From the NCBI GenBank assembly GCA_029855935.1, contig JAGSHN010000023.1:1-64000 (forward strand): DNA of 64,000 nt. The letters are read 5' to 3'. Shown here piece after piece: positions 2,491-59,846 of this stretch (position 1 is the first letter of the stretch; each line of letters begins with the position of its first letter). The DNA is from Candidatus Thorarchaeota archaeon (GTDB lineage Archaea; Asgardarchaeota; Thorarchaeia; Thorarchaeales; Thorarchaeaceae). Under the pieces are notes generated by a model. The model searched no databases, was not told the origin of the DNA, and saw only the letters and a program-made list of their open reading frames with translations. The position numbers and the translations under genes are program-made.

Positions 2491-2499
2491 CATAATAAG
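2491..2499 (-). promoter_or_regulatory. TATA-like box for the 73-2436 gene
   Basis: The minus strand reads CTTATTATG about 55 nt upstream of ATG 2436. The same CTTATTA core occurs 56 nt upstream of the other large surface-protein gene (15590-15597). A TATA box here would put the transcript start near 2468, with a leader of about 30 nt. Confidence 0.4.
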
Positions 2500-2721
2500 C
2501 TTGAGGTGTCACCTGAGAATCGTTGCATTTCGAGAGGCCGCACGACGTGAATGAACAGCTCAATCCGCGCAAGACCCAGAACTATTGTCGGCCAACACAA
2601 CTACCCGAGCTCCGCAGAATTCTTTATCAGAACTGCTCTCCCAATGTGGGTGTCCCAGTAGTTCCCTTGGCAGTGATGAGGATGGAGAAATGACGACTCT
2701 ACCCACGTGGAGGAGGAAAGC

Positions 2722-8473: not shown

Positions 8474-8733
8474 TCATACACCATCCTGTGCACATTGGTC
8501 CTCAGACATAAATTGGTGTCGTACATTCTTGCAGACAGTCGGCACCCACATTGTCAACAATTGCATCGTGAGTAGTAGAGTGTTCGCACACATTGGACAG
8601 GGTACCACTCACTTCGTGGCCAGCTGTTCGTCTCTCCGATAGCGGCAAGGTTAATAGCCACCTGATACACGATAGTCTCGAAAGGGAGGACAGGACGTGG
8701 TAGACAATAGATTCGAACAGAAGAGCAAGATAC

Positions 8734-9135: not shown

Positions 9136-9488
9136 GAGCCGAACTGGGATGGATAATAGAGATTCCCGGTGTTGAAGCAGTTCTCCTCTTTGGCTCAAGA
9201 ACCAACGGCGCGAATAGCCCAGAGAGCGATATCGATGTGTGTGTAGTTGCCCCAAGAGTCACCGAACCAAAGGAGAAATCCACACTTCTGGGAAGACTTT
9301 GGCAACGACTCAATCCGGACATCTATGATGTGTGGCTGTTTGAAGAACTACCACTCTACATGAAGATGAGCGTGATAACAAGGCACGTCATTATTGCCTG
9401 TAGAGATGTTCCTGCTCTCTTTGAGTACTTCTACAGATTTCGCAAGATCTGGGCCGACCAAGCACACAGGCAGATTGTCACGTTCTAG
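9108..9488 (+). CDS. mntA: MntA-like minimal nucleotidyltransferase antitoxin
   Basis: The nucleotidyltransferase signature GSX10DXD is perfect: GSRTNGANSPESDID. In known pairs this protein AMPylates and inhibits HepT. I set the start at GTG 9108, preceded by GGAGATGA (9093-9100) at normal spacing. A longer frame from GTG 9087 has no ribosome site. The overlap with hepT implies translational coupling. The length of about 126 residues is normal for the family. Confidence 0.85.
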   Translation: MVAPEIDDLRAELGWIIEIPGVEAVLLFGSRTNGANSPESDIDVCVVAPRVTEPKEKSTLLGRLWQRLNPDIYDVWLFEELPLYMKMSVITRHVIIACRDVPALFEYFYRFRKIWADQAHRQIVTF

Positions 9489-9858
9489 CTCACCGGGTCA
9501 CAGGCTCAGAACAGAGGTATCTGTACGGGATGCTCCTAGAGGGGACTCCATTACGTATCCCTTGAATACCAGTGACAGAGTCGGGGACCATGAGATCTCC
9601 ATAGCGCTGCGCTATGGTCGGATGTGCCCCCTCACGAAGAGTGATTCTATTCTTGTCTGGACCCCACAGCACAGAGACAACACATTGATTCTTCGGGATC
9701 CAATTTGCTCCTCCCCTGTGGTTCTGCCTGGTCGTTGGCAGTTCTAGAGGAGTTGGATGTTTCTGGACGAATCACCGTGGGCGGCTATGTGCTCCATCTC
9801 AGAACGATACTGAGGCAGCAAGAGGGAGAGTGGTGCTCATCCACATCTTCTCAAGACG
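9489..9858. other. Gene-poor stretch after mntA
   Basis: No convincing gene. Short open frames on both strands have low-complexity Arg/Ser/Thr translations typical of non-coding frames. Confidence 0.5.
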
Positions 9859-10071
9859 ATGGATGAAAAAGACCCAGGCGAGGTATTGTTTGGAGCCCTG
9901 CTGATAGCTCTTGTCGCCGGAATGCTACTGCTCAGTCCTCCCGAGCCTCGGCTCCATACTGACTAGGCAACCCTCGCGATGACCTTTGCCATAACAATCG
10001 GCGTCATACCCATTGCAAACGGGAAGAACAAGCGGAGACAGGCGAGAGATAGAGCCGAATACTCTGCGTGA
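9859..10071 (+). pseudogene. Small two-helix membrane protein frame split by TAG
   Basis: One frame reads a 35-codon piece starting MDEKDPGEVLFGALLIALV with a clear membrane helix, a TAG at 9964-9966, then a second piece with another hydrophobic segment (MTFAITIGVIPIA) and a basic tail ending at TGA 10069-10071. Without the stop it would be a plausible 70-residue hairpin membrane protein with a charged tail. TAG ends several intact genes nearby, so read-through is not expected. It may be a broken gene, two tiny genes, or chance. Confidence 0.35.
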
Positions 10072-10275
10072 ACAGGCCAACGATGTGGCACGCAGTGTCT
10101 CTCCGCGTGGTGCGAATCGTAAGAATGGTTAGAGAGTTAACCCTTGGCGCACTGACGGTACGTCTGAGAGAATACGATTGCAGTACGCTAGCTGACTCAT
10201 CAAGTGGAATATGAGGAAAAAGAGAGGGAGGAGGACGCCCGATACCTCGGACGCCCTCGCCCATGGGCCGCAGAC

Positions 10276-13200
10276 TCACTCCGAGGCGCTGCTACCGCTA
10301 CGGCGCTTCTTGACTAGGATGACTATCACAACCACCAGAATGCCTGCGGCTGCCACGACTCCTACAATTACAACAGGATCGAGTCCTCCGGACGGAGGAG
10401 CCGTACTGGTCGTCGTGGTGCCTGTACTGGTGGTCCCCGTGGTTGTTCCCGTGGTGGTCCCCGTCGTCGTCGAGGTGGTCGTGGTGGTCGTAGTGGTGGT
10501 ACTCTCCTCTACGACATGAACGATTGTCGTGGCGGATGATGAATGTCCTGCCTGGTCGGTGACCACGATTGTGAAGTTGTAGACTCCGGCCGCGAGGCCC
10601 GACAGTGGCACCTGTACCGTCGTTGGCGAGAGGTAGGGCCCTTGACCAACAATTGTACCGTTCCGGTAGAGCGAGTAGGCGTCAGGGAAGACATCAGAGA
10701 GATCCCACGAGACATACTCGCTCGCACCCACAGTGACCGTCATCTCATCAACACCGGACACGGTCGGCGGGTGGTCATCCACACGAAACACATACCGGCT
10801 CATCGCCTCGTTGCCTGCGTCATCACTTGCGTAGACGAACAGGCTTCTCTCGCCATCGCCTGCCGGAACCGGGATGTCGTATGGCGGTGATATCGTGGTA
10901 TTGCTGCCATCAGTGTCCCATCTGAACTGCACAAGTGCCAGATGGTCATCCGTCACGGACAACGAAACAACGTCGGAGCTTGTGACAAACGTGTAGTTTG
11001 CCGGTGACACAAGAGCAATGGCTGGCGCGTCCGAGTCGATGTAGAACACAAAGGTCGAAGAGGCAGTGTTCCCGGCTGTGTCGTTGGCCGTGACAGACAG
11101 TGTGTGCTGCCCCGCGGATGACGGGATGACGGTGTCATACGGTGCCGACCAGACCTGAGATGCCGCTCCATCCCACGAGTAGAGAACGGTATCGACATCA
11201 CCGCCGCCGATACTCACGTCGACGGTCACGGGCTCGCTGTGAACAGAGGAGTTCGCGGGCGAGCTGAGCGTGATCGTCGGCGGAGTGGAGTCGGTGGTGA
11301 ACTGGTACGAGGCGGTCGCCCAGTTACCAGCACTGTCCTCAGCAAAGACGTCCAGCGTGTGCAGGCCCTCAGCCGTCGGGAATGTCAGGTCATACGGACT
11401 GCTCAGCGTCGCGTTGGAGCCACTGTCCCAAGCGTACAGCACCTCATAGACGCCAGTCTCGATGTCGCTCACTCCCAGGTCTATCACAGTCCCGGGTGTC
11501 CTCGTGCTGCCATCAGGTGGCGAGTTGAGGCTGATGCTCGGAGGCGTCCTATCCAGACCCACCTCGGCGATGAAGGCATCGTTGGAGCCACCGAGAGTGT
11601 CATCATATGGCCGACTCATCGGGAAGTCGCTCGACGCGGTCTCACCTGTGACTAGGGCCGTACCATTCGGATACGCGACTATGCCACGACCATATTCATT
11701 CTGTGAGCCGCCAAGGTAAGTTGCCATCATCATCCCGCCTGTGCTGTTGAAGTGCAGCACAGTGGTCTCCGAGTTCACGGCGACAGTGTCGAAGGCGTTG
11801 AACAGCGGCGCGCTGACGTCAGACAAGGTGCCGCTGACCAGCACGTCATCGTTGTCGGCACCAAAGCAGGCGTCGCCGCCGTATGCGCCAAAGGTCCCGC
11901 CGAAGTACGTGCTCCACAGAAGCGACGTATAGGAGCCTGTGTAGCGCGTGATGAACAGATCATAGTTCCCACCATTTGTGCTCTGGTAGGCATCGACGAC
12001 GGGGAAGTCACTAGAGGCGGTCCTGCCCGTTGCCACCACCGCACCAGCAATGTTCGCGGCCACGCCCGTGCCATACTCCACGCCGGATCCTCCAAGGTAT
12101 GTGGAGAACCGGATTGCTCCGGCACCAGTGAAACTTGCCACGAACGCATCCGACGAACCGCCAAGCGTGGTGTCGTTGGCGCTCTGGGTTGGGAAGTTCG
12201 AGGACCAGGTCGTTCCGACGACGTAGATGTTGCCGCTACCGTCCAACTCGACATCATTGGCCTCGTCCGAGTGCGCAAGGTCGGAAGACAGACCATTGCC
12301 GCCCAGATACGTCGAGAAGATCAGACCGTTGCCCGTGGAGTTGAATTTCGTCACAAAGGCGTCACTGTAGCCGCCTGACGTGCTCTGGTAGGCGTTTACA
12401 ACGGGAATCGTGTTCGTGACACCCACAATGACCGCCTGCCCTGAGGTGTCCACTGCGATAGCGTGGCCCTCAGTAGTGTCGTTGCCAAAGTACGTGGAGT
12501 AGATCAGACCGTTGCCGTTGGAGTTCAGCTTCAGCACGAAGGCATCGGGCGTGCCGCTTCCAGAGCCGGAGTAGGTCGAGTCATAGGCGTTCACGGTCGG
12601 AAAGTCACTTGAGTAGGTCAGTCCGGTGGCATAGACGTTGCCATCGCTGTCTACAAAGATGCCACGTCCGATATCGTCCCCGCTACCACCCACATAGGTG
12701 CTCCACACCACTGATGATGTGCGCGGGTCCAACTTGGTCACGAATACATCGAGTCCGCCATTGTGTGTAGTGTCGTACGCGTCCACAGGAAAGCCATTGC
12801 CCTGGGTGGAGCCGACGACGTAGGCATAACCGTACAGATCTACTGCAATGTCATAGCCTGAGTCACTGCTACCACCCCCCAGATAGGTGCTGAAGAGGAG
12901 GCCAAAGTCGACACGCACTCCGAACGCAAACACAGAGGCGGTCTCATGACCTGCTGCGTCGCTGGCATAGACGTAGAGATAGGCCCATCCCTCTGCGAAT
13001 GGTATTCGCGTCTCATAGGGCGACGTCCAAGAACTGTTCGAACTCTGTGTGGACCACCGATAGTAGGCGCTCGTCAGATGTGCGTCAGAGACTGAGACTT
13101 GGACGAGAGTCCCGGAATACTGAACCGTTCCATTCGTGGGCGATGTCAGACTGACAGCGGGCGGCGTGTCATCGCAGGTGAATGTGTAGCTTGTTGACGC

Positions 13201-15534
13201 CCAGTTGCCGGCAGTGTCATTGGCATAGACATAGAGCGTGTGTGGGCCATCGCCCGACATCATAAAGACGTTGTAGGGAGCGTATAGTGTGGAGTTTCCG
13301 TTGGAGTCCCAGTGATAGAGCGCCGTGTCAACGGCGACATTGTCCGTGATTGTGAGGTTGATCACAGTCCCGGATTTCAGAATGCTGCCGTCGGGTGGGG
13401 AGATCAGCTGAATGGTCGGCGCCTGTGTGTCGTTATAGAGATGCAGAACGTAGCCTTCCCAGCTACCGCCAGGTGTCGATTGGAAGCCGTCGACAATGGG
13501 CAGGTCGTCGGATGTTGTCTGGAACGTCGCAGTGATGTTGCCCGAACTGTCAACATCCAGCCCGACGACGTAGTCGTCGTAACTCCCACCGTAGTATGTG
13601 CTGAACAGCAGTGACTGGCCGTCGGAGGAGAAGCGGGTGATGACACCATCAGGACTGCCCTGTAGACTCATCAGCTCCTCACTGAGGGGATAGTCAGACG
13701 ATGAAGAGTATCCCACGACCACAGGCTCCGTGCCAAAGGCCAGATCAATGTCATACATAATCTCGTCGCCCGAGCCGCCGATATATGATGAGTAGGAGAG
13801 GGAGCCTCCACCAGAGGCGACCTTTGCTACAAATCCGTCCCGCGAACCCCCGAGCGAGGAGTCGTATGCATTGACAACGGGGAAGTCCGATGACTCAGTA
13901 TATCCGGTGACGTAGGCTGCACCCGCGGAGTCTACCACGATGGCTTTGACGTGGTCATCGTAGCCTCCTCCGACATACGATGAGTAGACGTATCCGGAGA
14001 AGTCAGACTTGATCTCAGTGACGAATCCCTCATCCCATGACGAACTCGTAGACGAGTCAAAGGCATTGAGGAGTGGAAAGTCGGTCGACAGAGTACGGCC
14101 TCCAACGTAGATGTTTCCACTGCTGTCAACATCCAGACAGTAGCCATTGTCCTCATTTGATCCGCCAAGATAGGTGGAGAAGACAAGGCCATTGCCTGTG
14201 CTGTTGAATACCGTCACAAAGGCATCACGTGATCCGTTCAAGGTGCTATCAATAGCGTTCTTCAGGTCAAAGTCAGAAGAGGCCGTTTCGCCAGTGACGA
14301 ACATTCGGCCAGTACTCCCAAGACGAATTCCCGTTGCCCAGTCGTCGCCGCTGCCGCCGAGATAGGTCGAGAACAGGATTGATGAGCCGTTGCTACTGAG
14401 CTTCACAACGACAACATCACTGCCGCCATCAAGACCTGCCTGATAGGGACTAGCTGTCGGAAAATCAGTGCTTGTTGACGAGCCGACCACGTAGACATTG
14501 CCACTGGAGTCGACAGTGATTGGTGAACCGACAGTAGCCACGTACTCGTTGCTGGAGCCTCCGATGGCCGTGCTGAACACGAGCTGGCCGTCGTATGTGA
14601 GCATTGTGACGACTATGTCCGACTGACTCACAGTCGAGTCATACGCGTTCTTGAAAGGAAAGTCGGTGGAGTACGTGTAGCCCACCGCGTATATCCCGTC
14701 ACTGGTGACGACTACGTCATTGATGTAGTCATTGGCGCTACCGCCGAGGTACGTGCTCATAGTCACAACCAGCGGATCAATCACAAGAGGCTTGTGAGGG
14801 TCGTAGTCACCCACGGCAAATCCGTACGAGTCGGCCGCAAGCTGGACAAAGTGGCTCTCGATGACGGTGGAGCCCTGCTGAACGAGCAGGCCTGACTCGC
14901 CATATGTGGGGACACCATCGCTCTCAAAGAGTATCTCATCGCCCCTGATGAGCGGATGCCCCTGACTTACCACGACCTCAATCTGAGTTGGGTCAGCACC
15001 AGGCCGGACATAGAACTCGCTCTTCAATCCGCGGTCCGTCATATAGTAGTAGAGATCGATACCATCGTAGATATTCCGATACACTATCTGGTCGAACGTG
15101 GGGATATCGGTGTACTGACGACTGCCAATGAAATAGTTGACACGATGCATCTTCTGACTCAGGCCCTCCGGCAGGGCTAGGTTGGCACCACGGAACGACA
15201 ACATCGTTGAGAACCTTCGTCCACTGTCGTCCATCCATACCAGCCGCACTGCCGACGGCAAGAATGCCACGCTGGCAGCCCGTCCCTCCAGATAATAGTA
15301 GATGTTGTCATCCGAGACCTGACCGATGTTCCTCACGAATCCACCGAATGGCAGATTGCCACCCTTGACCGACCGGACCACATCGGTCCTGACGGTGGGG
15401 CGCATCGGCATTGAGTCGACCGAGGCCGACAGGTCAGGACTAGATTCCGCAGCCGCAACACTCGCGGCTGGTGCTATTGCCATACTCGCACATAGCACGA
15501 TGACCATGAAGAGCAGAAAGAATCTGCGCAACAT
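10276..15534 (-). CDS. Giant SBBP/Ig-like repeat surface protein (1752 aa)
   Basis: The order is: signal peptide (residues 1-30); an N-terminal domain with FVRNIGQV and VNYFIGS typical of SBBP proteins (about 50-250); seven repeats of the FSTYLGGS...GxxYVVGxTxSxDFP type (about 260-700); two Ig-like domains starting P-P-x-x-x-L-x-S-P (about 700-880); seven more SBBP repeats (about 880-1330); four Ig-like domains (about 1330-1680); a Thr-rich stalk; and a membrane helix near 1716-1738 ending KKRRSGSSASE. Two sets of seven units fit two closed seven-bladed propellers. It is probably an extracellular adhesin or scaffold. Many N-x-S/T sites suggest glycosylation. Start is ATG 15534. No enzyme domain was seen. 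Confidence 0.92.
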   Translation of the reverse strand: MLRRFFLLFMVIVLCASMAIAPAASVAAAESSPDLSASVDSMPMRPTVRTDVVRSVKGGNLPFGGFVRNIGQVSDDNIYYYLEGRAASVAFLPSAVRLVWMDDSGRRFSTMLSFRGANLALPEGLSQKMHRVNYFIGSRQYTDIPTFDQIVYRNIYDGIDLYYYMTDRGLKSEFYVRPGADPTQIEVVVSQGHPLIRGDEILFESDGVPTYGESGLLVQQGSTVIESHFVQLAADSYGFAVGDYDPHKPLVIDPLVVTMSTYLGGSANDYINDVVVTSDGIYAVGYTYSTDFPFKNAYDSTVSQSDIVVTMLTYDGQLVFSTAIGGSSNEYVATVGSPITVDSSGNVYVVGSSTSTDFPTASPYQAGLDGGSDVVVVKLSSNGSSILFSTYLGGSGDDWATGIRLGSTGRMFVTGETASSDFDLKNAIDSTLNGSRDAFVTVFNSTGNGLVFSTYLGGSNEDNGYCLDVDSSGNIYVGGRTLSTDFPLLNAFDSSTSSSWDEGFVTEIKSDFSGYVYSSYVGGGYDDHVKAIVVDSAGAAYVTGYTESSDFPVVNAYDSSLGGSRDGFVAKVASGGGSLSYSSYIGGSGDEIMYDIDLAFGTEPVVVGYSSSSDYPLSEELMSLQGSPDGVITRFSSDGQSLLFSTYYGGSYDDYVVGLDVDSSGNITATFQTTSDDLPIVDGFQSTPGGSWEGYVLHLYNDTQAPTIQLISPPDGSILKSGTVINLTITDNVAVDTALYHWDSNGNSTLYAPYNVFMMSGDGPHTLYVYANDTAGNWASTSYTFTCDDTPPAVSLTSPTNGTVQYSGTLVQVSVSDAHLTSAYYRWSTQSSNSSWTSPYETRIPFAEGWAYLYVYASDAAGHETASVFAFGVRVDFGLLFSTYLGGGSSDSGYDIAVDLYGYAYVVGSTQGNGFPVDAYDTTHNGGLDVFVTKLDPRTSSVVWSTYVGGSGDDIGRGIFVDSDGNVYATGLTYSSDFPTVNAYDSTYSGSGSGTPDAFVLKLNSNGNGLIYSTYFGNDTTEGHAIAVDTSGQAVIVGVTNTIPVVNAYQSTSGGYSDAFVTKFNSTGNGLIFSTYLGGNGLSSDLAHSDEANDVELDGSGNIYVVGTTWSSNFPTQSANDTTLGGSSDAFVASFTGAGAIRFSTYLGGSGVEYGTGVAANIAGAVVATGRTASSDFPVVDAYQSTNGGNYDLFITRYTGSYTSLLWSTYFGGTFGAYGGDACFGADNDDVLVSGTLSDVSAPLFNAFDTVAVNSETTVLHFNSTGGMMMATYLGGSQNEYGRGIVAYPNGTALVTGETASSDFPMSRPYDDTLGGSNDAFIAEVGLDRTPPSISLNSPPDGSTRTPGTVIDLGVSDIETGVYEVLYAWDSGSNATLSSPYDLTFPTAEGLHTLDVFAEDSAGNWATASYQFTTDSTPPTITLSSPANSSVHSEPVTVDVSIGGGDVDTVLYSWDGAASQVWSAPYDTVIPSSAGQHTLSVTANDTAGNTASSTFVFYIDSDAPAIALVSPANYTFVTSSDVVSLSVTDDHLALVQFRWDTDGSNTTISPPYDIPVPAGDGERSLFVYASDDAGNEAMSRYVFRVDDHPPTVSGVDEMTVTVGASEYVSWDLSDVFPDAYSLYRNGTIVGQGPYLSPTTVQVPLSGLAAGVYNFTIVVTDQAGHSSSATTIVHVVEESTTTTTTTTTSTTTGTTTGTTTGTTSTGTTTTSTAPPSGGLDPVVIVGVVAAAGILVVVIVILVKKRRSGSSASE

Positions 15535-40825: not shown

Positions 40826-41305
40826 CTAGCCAATCAACGTGAATCCGTCAAAGATACTGCAGCCGCAAGGTACTATCCGCAAAGGGAAACTAGGCGTTCC
40901 CAGAATCCTCTTTACCAGAGACAAGTTATTCGCAACAAAATCGCATATGTTCTGTGGGAGAACCAATATGTGACGGTAGTTGGGATTTCTCACGCCCATG
41001 CAGTCCAGCAACCCACCAAGAAATCCTTCAGTTTCCTTGAACTTGCTATCAAGACTGCGGATGGCTTCAGAAAAGGTTGATTCCTCAGCAATGTTCTTGA
41101 GTTCCACCAGGAATGCGGTGCATTTGTCATCCTCGAACATAACGTAGACTACATCGCAATGGGCCAAGTGCATTCTCCCAAGTTCCGCGTACTTCTCGAA
41201 GTTGAGAACCAGAAAGGGCAGACCGCCCTTGAGGATGATTTTGCAGTCATTCTCTTCATACTCGGCTTCCATTCTCGGCCCATTCGTCGTCCCCGGCACG
41301 TTCAT
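40826..41305 (-). CDS. PD-(D/E)XK-like nuclease partner of ATPase
   Basis: 159 residues. HCDVVYVMFEDDKCTAFLVE followed by LKN gives D-x14-E-L-K, the order expected for a PD-(D/E)XK active site. The start ATG 41305 has AGGAG and lies within the 3' end of the ATPase gene (50-nt overlap); ATG 41272 is an alternative. The overlap means the two proteins are made together, as in ATPase-nuclease defence pairs. Nuclease activity is inferred, not shown. Confidence 0.65.
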   Translation of the reverse strand: MNVPGTTNGPRMEAEYEENDCKIILKGGLPFLVLNFEKYAELGRMHLAHCDVVYVMFEDDKCTAFLVELKNIAEESTFSEAIRSLDSKFKETEGFLGGLLDCMGVRNPNYRHILVLPQNICDFVANNLSLVKRILGTPSFPLRIVPCGCSIFDGFTLIG

Positions 41306-42989
41306 CGTCTCCTAAGCCTAGCGCCCACTCCAGCAGAATATCTATGACATCCGTCAGACTGGGAATGTGCTTTGTTAGCTCATCTGCGGGAACTTCTGAT
41401 ACTTCAACTCCTTCCTTCTCAGGCTTGTAGTAGTAGAACCGGATGTCAAGATCCCCTGCTCGCGCAGCGTATTCTGACAGAAGCTCAAGAGGACCGCCCT
41501 CAACAGGCACCCTCTGCATCTCCAGGAGCCTCTCTATCAGCTCACGGATCTTCTCGCTGCTGGGTCGGTGTATCTTTATGTATGCTAGGATAAGAACGAT
41601 GAGGTCACTGTGGGTACTGAAAACCACTTGGTGCTCGTACTTGCTTGCAAGCGCCGCCAGAGTCAACCCCATCAGCAATTGAGCGGCATAGTGTAGTTGA
41701 GCCTCGGGCTCCTCTATGATGATCCTTGATCTTGGACGCGTCGAGAGAACTGGCAACAGAATTCCCGCAACTTCTCCGGCCAGGGCCGAGGCCGAGTTCA
41801 TTGGCACGGCGCACGCACCCGTGGAATAGAATAGACCCTTCGCCCTTTCGTAGGTAAGTCTGCCTTGAAGAACCGGAAGAAATAGCTCAATTGCTTCCTT
41901 GTCGTAGGAACCGTCGGCAATCTTGGATCTGCCCAGGCTCAGCCACGATATGTAGGAATGCAGAACGACATCTGACTCATACAGTGTGCTGTAGCCACGT
42001 CTGTCTCTTCGAATCGGTTCTTGCGAGAGGAGTTCTAGCTGGTTGATGACGAGGCTTCGTCCGAATGGAATGAAACGTACTTCCTCTAGACCGTATGACT
42101 CAGCATACGCAGCCCTGAGCGGTTGACATATTGACTCGTCTACGAATTCCAGAAGCACGTCATCCAGCCACAATTGGATACGGTGGGGAAGGAAGGAACC
42201 TAGGACATAGCCAGGCCTGCTGGCCCTCTGGAGAATCTGACTGACTGTGGCCTCCGGACTCTTTGCCGACGAAGCAATCTTCTTCAGTTCGTCCAGCACG
42301 TTCTTCGAGAAGACCCTCTCAACCGCCCTACTGCTGGCCCTCATCGAGAATCTGAGCTCCAAAGCAATTGCAACTACTCCTTCGGGTTTCAGGTCAAATG
42401 AAACGTTCGCTTGACAGATCGTATTCCTCCTCAGGTCACCAAATTTCTCAGCATAACTACGTGGCTCCGTAGAACTCTCAGCAATCAAGTCAAGGAACTC
42501 CGGCATTGATACCGAACTATCCAGTTTCGAGTCATCTCTCACCAAGACGATATCCCGATAGAAGTCTAGATTGGGCCGCAGCAAACTATCGACAGGAATG
42601 ACGCCAGAGGCCTCTATGGTAAAGTTGAGAGTGCCATCTTCGGAGCGCCAGCGAACGTTTTCCGCACCAGTCTGTTCTCTGAAAACCTCAGCGAGATTCG
42701 GTACTTGACTCTCTAAGCCTTCAAGGCCCAACGCGTACAACGCTACCAGCGCGTACAAAGCCCTCAGCGAGTTTCGCAGATTCAGAGGCGGATAGTCCAC
42801 ATCATACGTACTTAGTAGGTTACGGAACTCAAACTCGCGTGCGTGCTCATCGAGCATTAGAGTCGAAGCATACAAGGCTCTGAGGGTATACGACTTCCCC
42901 GTATTAGGCGGCCCGAACACGACAGTTATGTCGCCAATCTCTATATCCGCCGATCGTATCGGGCCCAAGTTCTCTATGTGGAATCCCAC
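41256..42989 (-). CDS. ABC/SMC-type AAA ATPase, defence-like
   Basis: 577 residues. The N-terminus GFHIENLGPIRSADIEIGD leads to Walker A GPPNTGKS (about residue 30). Near the C-terminus RIIIEEPEAQLHY is Walker B with the catalytic Glu, and VVFSTHSDLIV is the H-loop. This layout is that of AAA_13/15/21 proteins related to RecF and OLD ATPases. No TOPRIM is seen, so the effector is probably the overlapping 159-residue nuclease-like protein. GTG 42989 has AGGGAG. Signature-motif region not firmly placed. Confidence 0.87.
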   Translation of the reverse strand: MGFHIENLGPIRSADIEIGDITVVFGPPNTGKSYTLRALYASTLMLDEHAREFEFRNLLSTYDVDYPPLNLRNSLRALYALVALYALGLEGLESQVPNLAEVFREQTGAENVRWRSEDGTLNFTIEASGVIPVDSLLRPNLDFYRDIVLVRDDSKLDSSVSMPEFLDLIAESSTEPRSYAEKFGDLRRNTICQANVSFDLKPEGVVAIALELRFSMRASSRAVERVFSKNVLDELKKIASSAKSPEATVSQILQRASRPGYVLGSFLPHRIQLWLDDVLLEFVDESICQPLRAAYAESYGLEEVRFIPFGRSLVINQLELLSQEPIRRDRRGYSTLYESDVVLHSYISWLSLGRSKIADGSYDKEAIELFLPVLQGRLTYERAKGLFYSTGACAVPMNSASALAGEVAGILLPVLSTRPRSRIIIEEPEAQLHYAAQLLMGLTLAALASKYEHQVVFSTHSDLIVLILAYIKIHRPSSEKIRELIERLLEMQRVPVEGGPLELLSEYAARAGDLDIRFYYYKPEKEGVEVSEVPADELTKHIPSLTDVIDILLEWALGLGDDERAGDDEWAENGSRV

Positions 42990-47132: not shown

Positions 47133-48221
47133 ATGCCCCTTGGGCACACAATCGTTGAGGGGTCATCTCTGAGGGTACTCCACACGTCGGATCTCCATCT
47201 CAGTGCGGGCAACCCGCGCACACTCGAAGCCCTCGAACACATTCTAGATGTGGCAAGGCAAGAGAACGCAGATATCGTCACCATTGCTGGTGATATGTTT
47301 GACTCTGCCAGAGATGCAAACGAACTGCGGCCACAGCTAAGAGATCTGCTATCCGAAAACGGCTTTGAGATCCTTGTCCTCCCCGGGAACCACGACGCCA
47401 CGGCCTTTACCCAGAATACATTCTACGGCAATGATGTGTTCCCGCTGATCGATAAGCCTGTTACTGTCAGAGAATATGAAGACCTCCTCATCGCGGGCGT
47501 GCCATTCCGCGAGAGGCTGGACGATGATGTAGCACTCCGAATTCGAGAAGTTTCGGACTTCACAGGCACGAAGATCCTCTTGCTGCACTGCACCCTCGAT
47601 ATCGGCCTCGGGAGCGGTGGCTTCGGCGAAGAAGAGGCGATTCGCTACATGCCTGTGTCTTCAGCCAAGCTGGCCGGGCTCGGTTTCGACTACATCCTGG
47701 CTGGCCATTTTCACTCTTCGCTGCACGAACAGAAGCTTGCAAGCGGAGGACTGTTCGTCTACCCGGGGTCACCAGTCTCTCTGACAAGGAAGGAGCGAGG
47801 GCGGCGATCCGCCTATCTCATTGACACTGAGAGCAAGAAGACGCAGGCCATAGAGCTCTCTACGTTCTACTGTGATGAGCTCGAGGTCACAATCTCGCCG
47901 GGTACAGAGAAGGCGTGGGTCGAACAAATCGAACAATGGGCCAAGCATCACAAAGGAAAGAACTGTGACGTCAGGGTCATCGCGAAGGGGTTCACCGAGA
48001 TGCCAGAGGCTGAGCTGAAACAACAGATTGAGGCTGCAGCCGGGGGAATTCACGTTGACTTTCGCGTCCGTGGCATTGAGAACATCCTCCGATACCCCAT
48101 ATATCAGAGATTCAAGCAGCGACTTCTTAATGATGATGGGATCGACGACAAGGAGAGGGTAGATATGATGATGCTCACGGTCGTGTCTCGACTGGCGGAA
48201 GAGGGGGAGCTTGACCTATGA
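47133..48221 (+). CDS. YhaO/SbcD/Mre11-like metallophosphoesterase
   Basis: 362 residues with all phosphoesterase motifs: TSDLHLS (D-x-H), AGDMFDS (G-D), LPGNHDA (G-N-H-D), LLHCTL and GHFHSS (G-H-x-H). Such enzymes are Mn-dependent DNA exo/endonucleases that work with a Rad50-like ATPase. Its stop overlaps the start of that ATPase by 4 nt (ATGA), so the pair is coupled. ATG 47133 has no ribosome site; GAGGGG just upstream of SSLRVLHTS hints at a shorter start. Probably DNA end processing or defence. Confidence 0.88.
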   Translation: MPLGHTIVEGSSLRVLHTSDLHLSAGNPRTLEALEHILDVARQENADIVTIAGDMFDSARDANELRPQLRDLLSENGFEILVLPGNHDATAFTQNTFYGNDVFPLIDKPVTVREYEDLLIAGVPFRERLDDDVALRIREVSDFTGTKILLLHCTLDIGLGSGGFGEEEAIRYMPVSSAKLAGLGFDYILAGHFHSSLHEQKLASGGLFVYPGSPVSLTRKERGRRSAYLIDTESKKTQAIELSTFYCDELEVTISPGTEKAWVEQIEQWAKHHKGKNCDVRVIAKGFTEMPEAELKQQIEAAAGGIHVDFRVRGIENILRYPIYQRFKQRLLNDDGIDDKERVDMMMLTVVSRLAEEGELDL

Positions 48222-50221
48222 GGTTGAAAGAGCTCAACATCATCCGATATGGACCCGTGAGGGACCGCAGGCTCACGTTTGAGGAGAGCGTCAATCTCAT
48301 CTACGGCCCGAACGAGTCCGGCAAGACACTCTCAATAGATGCCCTGATCAAGCTCCTCCTTGGACGGGAGAGAATCCAGAGATGGGACATCGACCGTGTC
48401 GAGTCAAAGCCCAACGGGTACGCAATCATAGAGATTGGGGGCGAAGAAATAGAGCTCACCGGCTCCAAGTCATTGATTGACGTAATCGAGATGGATGACA
48501 CCGAACTTGCAGTAGACGACCTGAGAAACGTGTTCATCATTCGAGACTCGGACCTTCGAACTCACGATTCCCCCAGGTATTTCGAAACGCTTGTGGATCG
48601 GGTATCGGGAGCACGACTTGCGGAGATCGAGAAGATAATAGAAGAACTCGAGAGAGAGGGACGCATAACACCGAAAGGTCAACTCACGGATCGTCAAGAC
48701 ACGGGAAAGCTCGCAACTCGTGTCCGAGATGCCCGCAAACTGTTGAACGCGATTGAGGAGTTTTTCCAAAGACCGGAAACGCATGAATATGAGGAATTGG
48801 AATGGGAGTTTGTCAGGAAAAAGACCCGACTAGAAATCTTGAAACAACACTGGGAGCGACTTGAGCAAGCCAAAGAGCTGTACGAAGCTGTTGAGATTCG
48901 AAACAGTATCAGTGTCATTGAGGGACTCTTGAAGGAACGACAGCGATACGACAGGAGCCAAATCAGCAATCTAAGGACAAAGGCAGAACAGGCTAGGGCT
49001 GAGTGTGAGTTCATTGAGGCGAGCAAAGAAAAGATTGAATTCTTGTCCAGAACGGTACTCGTCTTTGCATTTCTGTCGATGATTGCCCTGGTTCTGGCAG
49101 TGCTTGTGAATCCGTTGGCTCTAGCAGGTCTAGTTGTGTTCGCAGTCCTGACAACGCTTCACGTGGGAAGAATTCTGTCAATCAAGGACGACGAAGCCAA
49201 GTTTAGGTCCAAGGCTCACACTCTTCTGATGGAGGCTAGGGCTGTTGGTATCAAATGCGATGACGTGGATGCACTATGCGAGAAACTCCGAAGCGTCTTG
49301 GACCGCGCGGACGAGGTCCATAACAAACTGATAGGACATTGGTCGGTCTTGGCAGACAAGTTCAACTTGCCAATGGATGCAAACCCCGAGGACCATCTCC
49401 CTTCGATAAGAAACGATATCGAAATGAGACTCATGGCACACAAAGGTATTGATGCTGACAACTTCGATTCAGAAGAGTACGAGAGAGTTAGGCAAGAAAT
49501 GCGCGAACTCGGCGAAGAGATTGAGGGATATGAGAAGAAACTTGAGTACTACCGGGATAAGCTTCAGGAATTTGAGCGCACAACGAACCATGTACTAAGA
49601 GCTGATTTTTCCGGCAGTGATGGGGGCTTGGAAATAGGCTCTCTTGAAGCACTGAGGGCAGCTCGGTCGAAACTAGAAGAGTTCATAGATCGGGTCGAGA
49701 CCCGTGCCGATACCGCTAGAGAGGCAATCAAGATACTCAAGGAGGTGCGCAATGAAGAGAGAAGCTCAATAGGCAATCTCTTCAAACCCGATGGACCTGC
49801 AACCCGCACCTTCGCAAGAATCACGAAGGGGGCGTATTCGGAGGTGCTGGTGAACAGGGACGGGTCAGCAATCCACGTCCGTCGGGCCGGAGGAGAGCTC
49901 ATTCCCCTTGAGAAGCTGAGCAGGGGAGCAACCGACCAGCTCTATCTGTCAGTACGGATTACGCTTGCGAAAGAGATTCTGGGAGAAGAGCCGGGGTTCT
50001 TCGTCATGGATGATCCCTTCTTGGCCTCAGATATGGGTAGGCTACGTGAGCAGGTAAGCATATTGAAGGAGCTGGCCCAAGAGGGATGGCAGATCATCTA
50101 CTTCACCTCCAAGGAGGAAGTGGTGACCGCGTTCAGGGAGATGGTGGGCGTTAAAGCGAAGTCATTGAATACGCTTCAGGGCCTGATACCGCCAGAGGAA
50201 GTTTCCCAAGCGGAGCCGTGA
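48218..50221 (+). CDS. YhaN/Rad50-like ATPase with membrane hairpin
   Basis: 667 residues. Walker A GPNESGKT (about 29-36), a long coiled coil broken by two adjacent hydrophobic helices (TVLVFAFLSMIALVLAVLV and LALAGLVVFAVLTTL, about 277-315), then a second coiled coil, the signature LSRGATDQLYLSVR (about 567) and Walker B FFVMDDPF (about 594). Rad50/SbcC has a zinc hook at the coil tip; here the tip is replaced by a membrane hairpin, as in Bacillus YhaN. The DNA-processing head would be held at the membrane. It partners the overlapping phosphoesterase. Confidence 0.9.
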   Translation: MRLKELNIIRYGPVRDRRLTFEESVNLIYGPNESGKTLSIDALIKLLLGRERIQRWDIDRVESKPNGYAIIEIGGEEIELTGSKSLIDVIEMDDTELAVDDLRNVFIIRDSDLRTHDSPRYFETLVDRVSGARLAEIEKIIEELEREGRITPKGQLTDRQDTGKLATRVRDARKLLNAIEEFFQRPETHEYEELEWEFVRKKTRLEILKQHWERLEQAKELYEAVEIRNSISVIEGLLKERQRYDRSQISNLRTKAEQARAECEFIEASKEKIEFLSRTVLVFAFLSMIALVLAVLVNPLALAGLVVFAVLTTLHVGRILSIKDDEAKFRSKAHTLLMEARAVGIKCDDVDALCEKLRSVLDRADEVHNKLIGHWSVLADKFNLPMDANPEDHLPSIRNDIEMRLMAHKGIDADNFDSEEYERVRQEMRELGEEIEGYEKKLEYYRDKLQEFERTTNHVLRADFSGSDGGLEIGSLEALRAARSKLEEFIDRVETRADTAREAIKILKEVRNEERSSIGNLFKPDGPATRTFARITKGAYSEVLVNRDGSAIHVRRAGGELIPLEKLSRGATDQLYLSVRITLAKEILGEEPGFFVMDDPFLASDMGRLREQVSILKELAQEGWQIIYFTSKEEVVTAFREMVGVKAKSLNTLQGLIPPEEVSQAEP

Positions 50222-50405: not shown

Positions 50406-51164
50406 CTACTCGTATATCTCCGAGATACTCGCAATCTCTCTCATCAGAAGCGTGATCTCGTCTAATAGCTCTTCACCCTCGTCGGGGTCCTGGGTCCGTA
50501 TGAGCTTGTCCTCATACATCCGGATAAGTCGCACCAGCTTCCTGTATCGCGGTAGAGGGAACTGTTCGGGGATCTCACCGAAGATGTAGCCCCGTTGTGG
50601 GGACAGATGTTCCTCGGCCGCTATATTTGCAATTTGAGTGATGGGAACCCAGATCTCCGCCAGAGTCCCGTCGTCATCTTCACTCGCCTTAAAGTAGGCC
50701 CCAATCTCGACGTCGTACTCGCCAAGGGTGCCTCGCAGTATGCTATCTGCGCGGACGTATCTCCATCCTCTTGCCCGTTTCTTCTTTCGGAGGGCAACAA
50801 CTATCTCAACCTCACCGTCCTCACGGTTTTCGCGAATGTACTCGCGGTCATCCTCACTGAGGCGGCAGGTCGGCGGTATTCCCCCAAAGTCGGTGTGAGA
50901 ATGAAACTCGCCGACTATGAAGTCCCAAGACAGAAACGCCAAGACCTCCTCAATACGGGCATATCTGCGGAAATTCGGCTCCACTGATGTGTATCGTCGC
51001 TCGGAGGACTGGAGAGCCACAACTGAGTTGACCACAACTTTGCCCGCCGAACCGAAGATGTCGCCCATCAATACACCTGTACATTCGCGCTTGTAGACCT
51101 CAATCGCATACCCGAGCATCTGTGCAAAGGCAGGTGCCCGGACGAAGACTGTTTCAATCTCCAA
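50406..51164 (-). CDS. JAMM/MPN metalloprotease-like protein
   Basis: 252 residues. ECTGVLMG is the JAMM glutamate motif and EFHSHTDFGGIPPTCRLSED continues to D, giving H-x-H...S-x-x-D. The spacer between the second His and Ser is about 12 residues instead of the usual 7, so the insertion near the active site is larger. Family members remove ubiquitin-like proteins or act in CBASS as Cap3. The C-terminal 110 residues are a helical extension. TTG 51164 is the likely start. It converges with the Rad50-like gene. No ubiquitin-like, E1 or E2 gene is visible nearby. Confidence 0.78.
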   Translation of the reverse strand: MEIETVFVRAPAFAQMLGYAIEVYKRECTGVLMGDIFGSAGKVVVNSVVALQSSERRYTSVEPNFRRYARIEEVLAFLSWDFIVGEFHSHTDFGGIPPTCRLSEDDREYIRENREDGEVEIVVALRKKKRARGWRYVRADSILRGTLGEYDVEIGAYFKASEDDDGTLAEIWVPITQIANIAAEEHLSPQRGYIFGEIPEQFPLPRYRKLVRLIRMYEDKLIRTQDPDEGEELLDEITLLMREIASISEIYE

Positions 51165-51687: not shown

Positions 51688-52215
51688 TCACAAGAATTTT
51701 CTCACGAAGTACCTGAAAGATTCACTTCTACGTTGTGCAAGCGAGGGGTCGAATCTCTCGATGATTCTATTCATAAATACCGAACGCGGTATCGACTGCG
51801 GTATTATGATATTGAACCACTGTTTTGTGACACGTGGCGGAATCGCGAGCCTCCTGACACCAGCAATCTGCCGAAGAATTTCTCTCTCAATTCCCGCGAC
51901 ATACCACGCCTCTATCTCGGGTATGACAACTACTATGCGCTGCTCGTCCCCAATCCCATATCGTCCGGCTATTTGGTTTCTCAGTGCCGTCACACAGGGA
52001 TAGCGATCCAGATCCCGAACAAGGACATACTCAGTACTCTTCCGTTCCAAGGTATGAATGAATTTCCGAATTTTCCTTTTCTCCATCTGAGCGTACTTGA
52101 CGATTTGAACACGATCATAGTGTTTCTCAAGACGTGAACAAAGGATTCTCCTGAAGAAGCGTTCGTCGTCATCCCCTTCGACGAAGACATAGAAAGACGA
52201 CATTTCTTTCGACAC
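51688..52215 (-). CDS. TOPRIM/DUF4276-like effector
   Basis: 175 residues. VEGDDDERFFRRIL gives the TOPRIM glutamate and YVLVRDLDRYP the D-x-D pair, followed by VVVIPEIEAWYVAG, typical of DUF4276/DUF4435-like proteins. These small TOPRIM proteins act as nuclease effectors next to ABC-type ATPases. It begins only 2 nt after the ATPase gene. The GTG 52215 or ATG 52203 start is unclear. The pair has the same layout as PARIS (AriA-AriB), though the TOPRIM family may differ. Confidence 0.75.
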   Translation of the reverse strand: MSKEMSSFYVFVEGDDDERFFRRILCSRLEKHYDRVQIVKYAQMEKRKIRKFIHTLERKSTEYVLVRDLDRYPCVTALRNQIAGRYGIGDEQRIVVVIPEIEAWYVAGIEREILRQIAGVRRLAIPPRVTKQWFNIIIPQSIPRSVFMNRIIERFDPSLAQRRSESFRYFVRKFL

Positions 52216-52217
52216 CG

Positions 52218-53498
52218 CTACTGCAGAATGCCCTGCACGAATAGGTCATCCACACCGAGATCGTTCTCCAGAAACGCCATTACCTCCTCGTCATTTCTTG
52301 GACGCGTGACCTGCGAATATCCATCCTCGTCCCGCGTAACAAGGAGAAGGTTATCAATACCAGCGTGCTTGACCACTTCGGGGTTGTGCGTTGTAATTAT
52401 CACCTGTTTGTTCATTCGGCTCGAGACCTCTTTCATCATATTCACAATCTTCGAGATGAGTAGAGGGTGAATGTTTCGCTCGGGCTCCTCTATGATAACG
52501 AGAGGGTTCTTTTCGAAATACAATGCGATTACCAACGTTGTGACATTCACCGTACCATCTGAGATCAGAAAGGCTGGCAGGAACCGTTTCTGTGAATAGA
52601 TCTCTCTGATGCTGGCGAGAAGCGATTTGTCCGGAAGTCTCTCTACCGTGAAGTCCTCTACGAGTGGCAGGACATCCTTCACTAATGACGAGATCAGGTC
52701 CCGGTCTCGCTTATTATCCAAGATGCGCTTCAGAATCAGGGGCAGATTGCTACCGTCTGGCTCAAGCTCGGTCTTGCCAGTGACGGGAGTTGCACGTTTC
52801 ATAAGTCGCGGATCAAAATCGTAGATAGAGATGTTACGCAGATAGTGTGCCAAGCTCGAATAGAACGGTGAAAGAAGGACTGGATCTTCAATGGAGAGTC
52901 TTCGTGGGCGCGGACGGGCAGCATATCTCATATCTCGCGCTAGAGACAGGTAGAAGAAGCGTTCTATGCGTGTGTCCGAGAGGGAATCAGACATTTCCAT
53001 CGTCACTCTGCGACCATCATTGATAGTAGTGATAGTGCCTTTGCGAACTTCTCCACGGAGCGCATCACCACCGTTCGGCCGGCGAGTCCCGTATTCACAC
53101 ACTGCCGTGAGTTTGTCCGACACTCCCGAGTAGTCCAGTTTGCGTTTGTAGAACCTGATTGAGAGTTCGTAATCGTACCGACTGACGGAGAGATAGGCAT
53201 CTCGAGATATCCGCAAGATGTCTCTTGCTTCGAGTGAGAGTTGGATGGACAGGTCACGCAAAGAACCTATGGCAAGATTGCGTAAGTAGGCCACTCCACC
53301 TTGCATCGAAATAGCGTTCTCCAACCCCATCGTGGTGATATCCTTGAGGAACCGGAACAGGGCGATAAGATTGGATTTTCCTGAGGCGTTCGGTCCGACT
53401 ATCACGTTGAAGTCGCCCAACTCAATCTCCGTTTCATTGAAGGTCCTGAAATTGCTCACCCTTATTCTTCGGATCCTCGTTGTGTCCTTCGGTCGCAT
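52218..53498 (-). CDS. AAA_21-type ATPase, PARIS AriA-like layout
   Basis: About 426 residues. IRVSNFRTFNETEIELGDFN leads to Walker A GPNASGKS (about residue 33). Near the C-terminus LVIIEEPERNIHP is Walker B and VIITTHNPEVV the H-loop. ATG 53498 follows GGGAGG at normal spacing; the frame up to 53516 lies in that site. It is directly followed by the TOPRIM gene. In known systems such an ATPase holds the TOPRIM effector inactive until phage is sensed. Confidence 0.87.
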   Translation of the reverse strand: MRPKDTTRIRRIRVSNFRTFNETEIELGDFNVIVGPNASGKSNLIALFRFLKDITTMGLENAISMQGGVAYLRNLAIGSLRDLSIQLSLEARDILRISRDAYLSVSRYDYELSIRFYKRKLDYSGVSDKLTAVCEYGTRRPNGGDALRGEVRKGTITTINDGRRVTMEMSDSLSDTRIERFFYLSLARDMRYAARPRPRRLSIEDPVLLSPFYSSLAHYLRNISIYDFDPRLMKRATPVTGKTELEPDGSNLPLILKRILDNKRDRDLISSLVKDVLPLVEDFTVERLPDKSLLASIREIYSQKRFLPAFLISDGTVNVTTLVIALYFEKNPLVIIEEPERNIHPLLISKIVNMMKEVSSRMNKQVIITTHNPEVVKHAGIDNLLLVTRDEDGYSQVTRPRNDEEVMAFLENDLGVDDLFVQGILQ

Positions 53499-53937
53499 AG
53501 GTTGGGAACCTCCCAACTTGTTTCGGAGAATTTGGCGCGTGTTGAGGTACTATCTCGGGAACGTATAAGGATTTGGAATGAACTGCTGGCTGAACTGCGG
53601 AGCTGGTTCGCCAGTCCTATGGATGCTTCGAACTGGCCTGTGCTTGCGCCAGCGAATCGGGGAAACGCCCTCCAAGACAACGCCCACCCTGTAGCGTGCT
53701 GTCGTTTCTCAGTTTCTGAGAGTTGGCTCCTTCGAATTCTTGTCCTCTACTACCTCCAGCAATGTGATGTGCTACTGTCTATGGTGTCGACTCCGCTGGC
53801 ATGCGCCAACACTCGCGGGAGAGGGCTTGTCCGGCGGAAACAGAGGATGCCCCAGGGGATTGTCCTGTTGGAACAGCAGCTGCGCTGGGCTCAGCTCTCA
53901 AATGATTCTAGAGTCGGCAGCCGATAGGCATATGCTG
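53499..53937. other. Region upstream of truncated helicase-nuclease
   Basis: A UvrD-type helicase should lie here if 53968-54981 is its C-terminus, but I see no helicase motifs I-V in any frame. Plus-strand frames are weak. Confidence 0.4.
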
Positions 53938-54981
53938 CCCGTTGGTGGAAGATAGCACTCGAGGAGCTTGAAGTATACAGCCGAAGACGAGGAGAGGAAT
54001 CGCACCTACTATGTCGCGTTGAACAAATCGCGCAATGATCTATTCCACCCGTACAACAACAAGGGCGGAGGCACACTGGAGTGGGACAACGATTTCAGGG
54101 ACAGGGTTCGCGAGGCCAAGGCCTTGCGGAGGACCAATGGATTGATTGAAGAGTTGGATTCGCCACCCAAGGCCCGGAAGTCGCTACCCACAAGGTCATT
54201 GAGGGTGATATACCGTCGGGACCCTGTCTTGGAGTCGATCGCGAGCAGATTCCTGCCCCGAGTCATCGATGCCACTCATATCTACGGTCTTCTGTTGTGT
54301 CCGCGCCGACACCAGTACGGTACACTGATGGGCGCAGCCGGGATGAAGTGCGACGAGGTTGAACGCAGCGAGTTCTCGCCGGCCTTCGGCTCTGTCCTAC
54401 ACAGTATGATCGCAGAGTTTGACTATGCCACGGGCTCCACTGAGAGCGCTCTCACCGTGCTCCATCAGGCTGAGTTCCTCACCGGCCCCGACAAGAAGAG
54501 GCTCCAGAATGCGATCACCTCGTACTCGGAGTTCACAGAAGAGATAGGTCTGAGGTCATCAGAGGGAGATCGAGTGTTGTCAGAGAGGGAGATCTACGGA
54601 ACCATAGATGTGGACGGGCAAGTCATCGAGCTCCGCGGGGTCATCGACATAGCAGTTGTCCGATCCGACGGTAAGATCGACGTCTACGACGTCAAGACCA
54701 ACTATCTGCCCCCTAGTGGCACTTCTGAAGAGAGGCTCAAGCGTGAGTTCCTGCGGAAACACCACGAACGTCAGCTCCTGACATACAAGTCAATGCTCGA
54801 ACAACAGGGACACACTGTTGAAGGTGTCTACGTTGTGGCTGTATCAAAGAAGAGTGCAACCCAAGTCAAGTGGAACCTAGTTCAAGTTGACGATGCAGAC
54901 TGGTCATTGCAAGAACTTTGTGAGATGCTGCCGATAACGGTCGAAGAAGAGGGACTCAGAAAGACTGAGAACAAGTACTGA
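53938..54981 (+). pseudogene. Truncated UvrD helicase-RecB nuclease C-terminus
   Basis: The open frame from TTG 53968 starts TAEDEERNRTYYVALNKSR, which is motif VI of UvrD/AddA helicases. Just upstream, in another frame, RWWKIALEELEVY fits the sequence expected before it, implying a one-base shift near 53980. The rest is a RecB-type nuclease: LLCPRRHQYG, FGSVLHSMIAEF, GVIDIAVV, DVYDVKT and QLLTYKSML cover its GxxxH, D, D-x-K and QxxxY motifs. The helicase body of several hundred residues is missing. The nuclease domain (337 codons) may still be expressed as a Cas4/RecB-like protein. Confidence 0.65.
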
Positions 54982-58067: not shown

Positions 58068-59846
58068 ATGAGCGAGTCACTAAACTCACGTTTCCTGCGC
58101 ATCCAGCACATCCTAGAACGGGTTCACGAAGGCGACTACGTCCTTCCGGAGTTCCAGAGGAGCTTCGTATGGTCGAACTCCGACATCAAGGATCTTCTCG
58201 TTTCATGTCTGAACGGGTATTTCATTGGGACGTTCCTCCTTCTTAGGGGTGATGCGGCAAAGAGCTTTAAGACACGGTATTTCGAGGGAGTTCCCGAGGC
58301 CAATCCGCAAATCCCACGAGAGCCAGATGACAGGACTGTCGATCGAATTGTCTTGGACGGGCAACAAAGGATAACTGCGGCATACTATGCCCTCTATGCG
58401 CCACCTGGTATCACACCCAAAGGGGCGTCATATCCCAGACGCTATCTCCTGAGGATTGAGAACTGTCACGTCGGCGACATCGACTGGGAGGATCTCATAG
58501 AAGACTGGTCCGAGAACGAGAGCAGTCGAAAAGTCCCTCACTCGTCAGGTGCAGCTAGACTTAGAGAACTCATTCAGAAACATGATTTTGTCAACCTTCT
58601 GAACGATTCAGAGTTCCGCAAATACCTCTTCGAGAATCATCTTCTGCCGTTCGCGGTTCTGAAATCAGACTCAGATTTCTCAAGGTGGTTGGACGATTAC
58701 GCGGACTACCTTGAGGAGAAGGGCATAGAAAAGGCTCAGGTGAGAGAACGGAAACAAGCCCTCCGAGAAAGACTGAAAAACGTGCTGAATTTCCAAGTTG
58801 CGGTTCTAGAGTTGGAGGAGAGGGACCTCGTCAAAGTCGTCGACCTCTTTGAGCGAATCAACCGAACAGGTGTTGCTCTCTCTGTGTTTGCACTAGCTAC
58901 CGCAGTCTACATGAAGGGAGGAGTAAACCTCCGCAGACTGTGGAGGGAGTTCTATGCAGCATCTCCTACAATTCAGCAGTTCTGTCAAGAGGATGATGAA
59001 ACATATCCCAAATACGTTCTCCAAGTGATGGCTCTTCTCCAAGGCAAGGAGGTCAAGAAGAAAGTCCTGATTGACTCCAGACAGTTGAGTGTTACATCTG
59101 ACCGATGGTCACAAGCCACGGAACTGCTCGAAAAGGCGCTCGACCGTGCAACAAGCACGAGAAACGGTTATGGAGCAATCAAGTCAAATCTCCTACCTTA
59201 TCGGTCGGCAATTGTCACTCTCGCTGCTCTTCTGGCCAAGTGCGGAACTGCTAGTGACTTTGACAAGCTGGACGCTTGGTACTGGAGTTCCGTCTTCACA
59301 GCAAGGTATGCTGGGGCCAGCGAAACAGCGATCAAGCAAGACTATGACCAAGTATGTCGATGGCTGAAGGATGGTACCCAAGAACCAAGTGTTGTCACTG
59401 AAGCGGCGAATCGTGTTTCGAGTCACAAGCTCGAGAACATCAGAACTGGCGGTACCTACAAAGCCATACTTTGCCTCATCTCATTGGCTGGTGCAAAGGA
59501 CTTCCTAACCGGACAGAGTCCCGAGCTAGGCTTGCTCAATGACCATCATATCTTTCCGAAATCATTGTATCGAGATAGACGCTCAGTTGATTCAATACTC
59601 AACCGGACACTCATTACCGACACGACAAATAGAGATATCTCGAATAAACGCCCGTCCGAGTATGTTCGGGAGATCATAAAGGCTCTTGGCGGGGAGGAGG
59701 ACGATGCGAGAGATATGCTGAAGAGTCATCTGATAGACGATGAATGTTTCGAGGCAATGAAACAAGATGACTATTCGCGCTTTATGGCCCGCCGGGCTGA
59801 GCTGATTCGTAGTGAGATGATTCGTCGAATCCGGTACGGGTCTTGA
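58068..59846 (+). CDS. GmrSD-like DUF262/HNH restriction protein
   Basis: 592 residues. The N-terminal DUF262 domain shows YVLPEFQRSFVWSNSDIKDL and the conserved VLDGQQRITA with its NTP-binding Gln/Arg. The C-terminal DUF1524-type HNH shows DHHIFPKSLY, then NRTLITDTTN and NKRPSEYV. This is the GmrSD/BrxU architecture of modification-dependent restriction enzymes that use NTP to cut modified phage DNA. ATG 58068 has TGAGG at 8-nt spacing. No methyltransferase lies next to it, fitting a type IV enzyme. Confidence 0.9.
   Translation: MSESLNSRFLRIQHILERVHEGDYVLPEFQRSFVWSNSDIKDLLVSCLNGYFIGTFLLLRGDAAKSFKTRYFEGVPEANPQIPREPDDRTVDRIVLDGQQRITAAYYALYAPPGITPKGASYPRRYLLRIENCHVGDIDWEDLIEDWSENESSRKVPHSSGAARLRELIQKHDFVNLLNDSEFRKYLFENHLLPFAVLKSDSDFSRWLDDYADYLEEKGIEKAQVRERKQALRERLKNVLNFQVAVLELEERDLVKVVDLFERINRTGVALSVFALATAVYMKGGVNLRRLWREFYAASPTIQQFCQEDDETYPKYVLQVMALLQGKEVKKKVLIDSRQLSVTSDRWSQATELLEKALDRATSTRNGYGAIKSNLLPYRSAIVTLAALLAKCGTASDFDKLDAWYWSSVFTARYAGASETAIKQDYDQVCRWLKDGTQEPSVVTEAANRVSSHKLENIRTGGTYKAILCLISLAGAKDFLTGQSPELGLLNDHHIFPKSLYRDRRSVDSILNRTLITDTTNRDISNKRPSEYVREIIKALGGEEDDARDMLKSHLIDDECFEAMKQDDYSRFMARRAELIRSEMIRRIRYGS

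Follow-up and report, generated by a model that had tools for sequence, protein, structure and literature searches.

Gene organization of the locus

The window analyzed here is a stretch of 64,000 nt from Candidatus Thorarchaeota archaeon (Asgard), contig JAGSHN010000023.1; the draft genome of the host is 2.97 Mb in size. A gene pair was identified at 47133-50221 (+). The first ORF (47133-48221, +, 362 aa) encodes a Mre11/SbcD-type calcineurin-like phosphoesterase, as indicated by Pfam, SbcD/Mre11 models, structures and alignment. The second (48218-50221, +, 667 aa) encodes a Rad50/YhaN-like coiled-coil ABC ATPase, as indicated by Pfam, models, Rad50 structures and the phylogenetic tree. The stop of the nuclease ORF and the start of the ATPase ORF overlap by 4 nt (ATGA), an arrangement through which the ATPase ORF is predicted to be translationally coupled to the nuclease ORF. 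Both ORFs are exactly as described in a sequence-only reading of this DNA, namely a complete Mre11/SbcD-type phosphoesterase overlapping a Rad50-like ATPase by 4 nt. The G+C content was mostly 0.55-0.59 in the first 24 kb of the window and fell to 0.46-0.55 at 26-60 kb, with 0.58 reached again over the final 2 kb; the lower G+C at 26-60 kb fits an acquired region.

The best Pfam match of the nuclease was Metallophos (3.6e-16). The SbcD/Mre11 models matched at 1.2e-13, and the matching solved structures were those of SbcD and Mre11. The metal ligands D20, H22, D54, N86, H87, H152, H192 and H194 were invariant (8/8 positions) in alignment A2, which takes in the host's two other Mre11-like proteins as well. 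As judged from these residues, the metal site of a Mre11-type nuclease is complete. The AlphaFold2 model of the nuclease was poor (pLDDT 52), the alignments being just 3-4 sequences deep.

In the ATPase, the Walker A motif GPNESGKT (48305-48328, +; aa 30-37) lies at one end of the protein, and the ABC signature LSRGATDQLYL (49916-49948, +; aa 567-577) and Walker B GFFVMDDP (49994-50017, +; aa 593-600) lie at the other, with a long coiled coil between them. Walker B displays D-D where Rad50/SbcC have D-E. The ATPase matched the Pfam families AAA_27 and AAA_23, with AAA_27 as the best (45.4 bits, cut-off 22), but this match covers model positions 1-52 of 206 only. The matching solved structures were Rad50 and, weakly, SMC1A. 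These motifs and matches bear out the Rad50-like head and coiled coil that had been proposed for the ATPase. Foldseek placed the ATPase model in the Rad50/SMC/Lamassu fold class with TM-scores of about 0.2, at which the class alone is informative; the head was modelled poorly by AlphaFold2 (four sequences), and we make no claim from it beyond the fold class.

A predicted membrane hairpin in place of the zinc hook

Two adjacent helices in the middle of the ATPase were predicted to be transmembrane. The first (49040-49108, +; aa 275-297) had a predicted insertion energy of -2.68 kcal/mol and the second (49112-49177, +; aa 299-320) of -0.56 kcal/mol, on a re-implemented biological scale that was checked on Ala/Leu helices, where an Ala helix of 19 residues with 3-4 Leu scored about 0. 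A run of 39 residues without D, E, K or R (aa 279-317) was equalled in none of 1000 shuffled sequences. The Kyte-Doolittle peaks of the paired segment were 2.94 and 1.95, and values of at least 1.9 in both occurred in 3 of 5000 shuffles. No CxxC zinc-hook motif was found anywhere in the ATPase. Hydropathy, the charge-free run, the insertion energies and the missing CxxC agree with the earlier proposal that two adjacent hydrophobic helices sit in the coil where Rad50 has a zinc hook. Chance hydrophobicity is ruled out by the shuffles together with the conservation described below.

The AlphaFold2 model (four sequences) consisted here of a helix (246-297), a turn and a second helix (300-342). 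According to this model, the coiled coil has its apex at the turn (N298/P299) and the hydrophobic part is the coil tip, so that the segment forms a helical hairpin and is not part of a folded soluble domain. In full-length members of the group the hairpin is located at 0.44-0.51 of the protein length. The zinc hook occupies a comparable mid-protein place, both in the host Rad50 (CPTC, 344/695) and in E. coli SbcC (CPLC, 506/1048).

A search for the pair in archaea, with its neighbors, detected relatives in Asgard archaea and in one WOR-3 bacterium. These are L027 (G015, a Lokiarchaeota MAG), G008, G217, G218, G091, G095, G087, G114, G161 and L028 (WOR-3 bacterium). The ATPase identity to the window protein was 59-68% for L027 and 27-28% for G008 and the WOR-3 bacterium. 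The phosphoesterase gene is located upstream of the ATPase gene in the relatives except G161 and G095, in which the upstream sequence is short or contains none. Both helices had negative insertion energy in 10/10 tested members, comprising the window protein and nine diverged relatives from Asgard archaea and the WOR-3 bacterium; L027 was kept out of this test because a run of N interrupts its ATPase exactly at the hairpin. Charge-free runs of 39-52 residues were present in about half of the group members. No segment of negative energy was found in the host zinc-hook Rad50, the host's second pair, E. coli SbcC or two alphaproteobacterial YhaN proteins.

The charges around the hairpin were counted in 11 proteins. 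The flanks contained 75 K/R against 39 D/E and the apex 2 K/R and 3 D/E, and this flank bias suggests that both coil arms are favored on the cytoplasmic side. Regarding the proposed location of the nuclease at the cell membrane, a hairpin with predicted membrane-inserting helices is thus supported by sequence and model, and its insertion in the cell appears likely.

Phylogenetic analysis

In the tree of ATPase heads, the window group formed its own clade (support 98/96) beside YhaN and was not nested within YhaN. The window group and the YhaN proteins together were split from Rad50/SbcC at 100/100. In the nuclease tree the group stood on one side of a branch (92/90), where its nearest kin were not resolved. 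The tree position beside YhaN is in agreement with the suggestion that Bacillus YhaO/YhaN is the nearest known layout. Ordinary Rad50, the identity that would have contradicted the proposed membrane-tethered pair, is ruled out by the tree, the absent hook and the D-D Walker B.

The YhaN side of the tree was represented by two alphaproteobacterial plasmid proteins, a Listeria-derived protein and L059, from an unverified gut contig named 'Bacteriophage sp.'. The two alphaproteobacterial proteins are annotated as YhaN family or AAA ATPase, are encoded beside a 'DNA repair exonuclease' and have no membrane helices. The Listeria-derived protein appears to be YhaN, judging from AAA_27, an adjoining phosphoesterase and its place in the tree; its contig was deposited as a Listeria phage and is probably host DNA. 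It also carries the hairpin (insertion energies -0.44/-1.66), which again brings the YhaO/YhaN layout close to that of the window. In the L059 protein one helix is strong and the other marginal. The annotation of Bacillus YhaN gives two membrane helices. With the tree position and the hairpin of the Listeria-derived YhaN, the membrane-hairpin layout falls into a kind that is known, though little studied (YhaO/YhaN, SbcE), and is less novel than at first sight. No paper treating YhaN alongside SbcC, SMC and transmembrane segments turned up in the literature search.

Viral origin of the pair was rejected, as neither sequence nor profile searches of viral contigs detected a relative. The matches in phage records are to unverified contigs, at least some of which are probably host DNA.

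A second group of Asgard Rad50-like ATPases (770-1090 aa, D-E Walker B) was located on the Rad50/SbcC side of the tree. Its loci are L065, L070 and L072 (G040, G028 and G217) and also L066-L069 and L071. These proteins contain a strongly hydrophobic mid-protein segment, with a charge-free run of 35-46 residues in six of eight, and a second inserting helix is clear in some members only. Their genes adjoin a Mre11-like gene, and in three loci a HerA-like fragment is located further upstream. A canonical Rad50 match is found separately in some of these genomes, namely G217 and G040. The presence of hairpins on both sides of the tree indicates that they arose more than once, or are old and were lost. 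A wider reading can be put forward tentatively, although we lean against it: a two-helix membrane hairpin replacing the zinc hook may define an unrecognized broad class on both the YhaN and Rad50 sides, including the second Asgard group by HerA-like and Mre11 genes, of which at least the accessory, island-borne branch would be antiviral and catch DNA ends at the membrane.

Distribution and probable horizontal transfer

The window-type ATPase was detected in 5 of the 47 genomes of the host family. It was absent from three genomes of the same genus, one of which gave just a 35-codon match at a contig end. The host also encodes a zinc-hook HerA-Mre11-Rad50 operon, the Rad50 of which is universal among the family genomes sampled (16/16). 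The nuclease of the window shares 86% identity with its counterpart in another genus, while the housekeeping Rad50 proteins of the same two genomes are 46-58% identical, indicating that horizontal transfer is probable. From these comparisons, the pair is probably a sporadic, accessory element that moved horizontally. The host has a further, third Mre11/Rad50-like pair (L024, G000:C10, 3286-5668, -), whose ATPase (433 aa) has scarcely any coil and no hook.

Genomic neighborhood

The 41-60 kb part of the window encodes an OLD-type ATPase/TOPRIM protein, a HEC-01-like ATPase with its partner, a GmrSD-type protein, a PD-(D/E)XK protein and others. The HEC-01-like ATPase (52218-53516, -) matched PADLOC HEC-01A at 4e-50 and is also MAD3-like; it is directly followed by a small HEC-01B-like partner (51688-52215, -). 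A Cas4/PDDEXK-like nuclease is located at 53968-54981 (+) and the GmrSD-type protein at 58068-59846 (+). Directly downstream of the pair is a lone JAB/MPN-domain protein (50406-51164, -) with a Prok-JAB match barely above the cut-off, and no E1, E2 or ubiquitin-like gene was seen beside it. PADLOC contains no defense system composed of the window pair.

At the related locus L027 (G015), a prokaryotic Argonaute (1259-3352, -; PADLOC pAgo 1e-188) and two RAMP-superfamily genes (10833-12059, + and 14098-15117, +) flank the pair. The G087 locus contains a ThsB-like gene, and no clear defense neighbors were found at the G008 and G091 loci. Defense islands gather unrelated genes.

At 40826-42989 (-) in the window and at 8211-10476 (-) in L027, the gene of an AAA_15 ATPase (577 aa) overlaps that of a small partner protein (159 aa). 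The two proteins are common to the host and G015 at 75% and 59% identity, and the genes are near the Mre11/Rad50-like pair in both, in rearranged order. The 159-aa partner had no Pfam match and contains a D...ELK motif recalling PD-(D/E)XK nucleases. These two genes are possibly a separate defense module travelling with the pair.

Possible function of the gene pair

Rad50 complexes are usually seen as soluble DNA-end machines that pair via the zinc hook. In Mre11/Rad50 (SbcCD), the heads cover the nuclease when they have bound ATP, and cutting is set off by DNA ends. For the pair of the window we consider it rather likely that the product is an ATP-gated, Mre11/Rad50-like DNA-end nuclease that is tethered to the membrane and belongs with YhaO/YhaN (SbcE), and that incoming DNA is its probable substrate. 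The phosphoesterase would be a Mn2+-dependent DNA nuclease of Mre11/SbcD type, seated on the ATPase heads of a dimer, and, as in SbcCD, ATP-driven closing and opening of the heads would admit a DNA end or hairpin to the active sites. The coils, with about 110 residues and a length of roughly 16 nm, would each end in the two-helix membrane hairpin, with both coil arms cytoplasmic, and would keep the head-nuclease unit at a distance from the membrane. The nuclease would thus probably work on the inner side of the cell membrane. The hairpins would tether the nuclease and may also join two coils inside the membrane. Such a complex would probably serve to cut DNA ends arriving at the membrane, chiefly the end that enters first when viral or plasmid DNA is injected. 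The tether would hold the nuclease away from the chromosome, so that entering DNA would be met first.

A role in defense is suggested by the defense-gene setting, the patchy distribution and the precedent of SNIPE, a nuclease bound to the membrane, which cleaves the DNA of phages as they inject it (PMC13190303). Anchoring of SNIPE spares host DNA and removal of the anchor is toxic (PMC13190303), indicating that membrane placement of an anti-entry nuclease works.

The main rival, and a live one because yhaONM is SOS-induced, is a membrane complex for DNA repair or DNA uptake, acting on chromosomal breaks or transforming DNA as proposed for Bacillus YhaON (SbcE), with the defense neighbors being incidental. 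The window ATPase groups with YhaN, and yhaONM, the best-studied relative, belongs to the LexA/SOS regulon, being a cluster with a putative role in double-strand-break repair (PMC3896406). An involvement of SbcE in such repair is described, and competence is added in the title of the SbcE paper cited there (PMC4205851). Induction by DNA damage and these roles are known from Bacillus alone. However, the host already has the zinc-hook HerA-Mre11-Rad50 operon and the further Mre11/Rad50-like pair, and the window pair is patchy (5/47), probably transferred and located amid defense-type genes. We therefore regard repair or uptake as unlikely, though to be taken seriously.

Quite improbable is an abortive-infection effector, in which the complex would sense DNA and the nuclease or hairpin would kill the cell or harm the membrane, as Lamassu LmuB activates LmuA. 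The Foldseek matches to LmuB, at TM-scores near 0.2 and hence informative of class alone, and the altered Walker B of this small Rad50-like protein (PMC10586767), comparable to the D-D of the window, are compatible with it. However, the D-D Walker B is common to the Listeria-derived YhaN, the directly overlapping partner gene encodes a complete Mre11-type nuclease and not a separate effector such as LmuA, and an LmuC-like third gene was not seen at the pair.

A hairpin outside the membrane, forming a soluble hydrophobic dimerization tip, would stand at the same place as the zinc hook, itself a dimerization device, but it is very improbable given the charge-free 39-52 residues in about half of the members, the negative insertion energy of both helices in all tested members, the charge bias of the flanks, and the insolubility of two exposed 20-residue hydrophobic helices unless buried, for which no other domain is available.

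A membrane hairpin conserved at the zinc-hook position in archaea and bacteria would bring cell position into the way in which such a nuclease distinguishes foreign DNA ends from the chromosome of its own cell. YhaO/YhaN, known mainly as an SOS-induced cluster, would gain a directly testable mechanism.

Comparison with known systems

SNIPE (DUF4041/GIY-YIG) is a works-like precedent as a nuclease held at the inner membrane (PMC13190303). The protein is unrelated to the window pair and has a single N-terminal membrane helix, a GIY-YIG nuclease and no ATPase.

Like the window protein, Lamassu LmuB is a Rad50-like ATPase of compact size (about 650 aa), and its Walker B is likewise changed (PMC10586767). 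However, LmuB partners with the LmuA effector and LmuC, while the window ATPase partners with a phosphoesterase, and many LmuB have a zinc hook. Weak LmuB matches were all that was detected of the Lamassu gene set at the pair.

The window pair shares the nuclease family, ABC ATPase head, coiled coil and nuclease-then-ATPase gene order with Mre11-Rad50/SbcCD. It differs in the predicted membrane hairpin replacing the zinc hook, in Walker B (FFVMDDPF, D-D and not D-E) and in its position apart in the tree, and the canonical pair is encoded elsewhere in the same genome.

The alphaproteobacterial plasmid-borne YhaN-family ATPases, such as that of Pseudochrobactrum, are similar in the adjoining DNA repair exonuclease, AAA_27 and side of the tree. 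They are larger (about 1170 aa) and lack the membrane segment.

YhaO/YhaN (SbcE) of Firmicutes displays the same phosphoesterase followed by an overlapping ATPase, the D-D Walker B, the lack of a zinc hook and the same side of the tree, with a mid-protein double hydrophobic segment in the Listeria-derived YhaN. In contrast, the window ATPase has 667 aa compared to about 906 aa, and its AAA_27 alignment spans positions 1-52 of 206 compared to 2-204 in the Listeria protein. The window group is also separate (98/96), archaeal, accessory and located amid defense-type genes. As far as sequence and tree indicate, the window pair is a variant of YhaO/YhaN (SbcE) that is compact and deep-branching.
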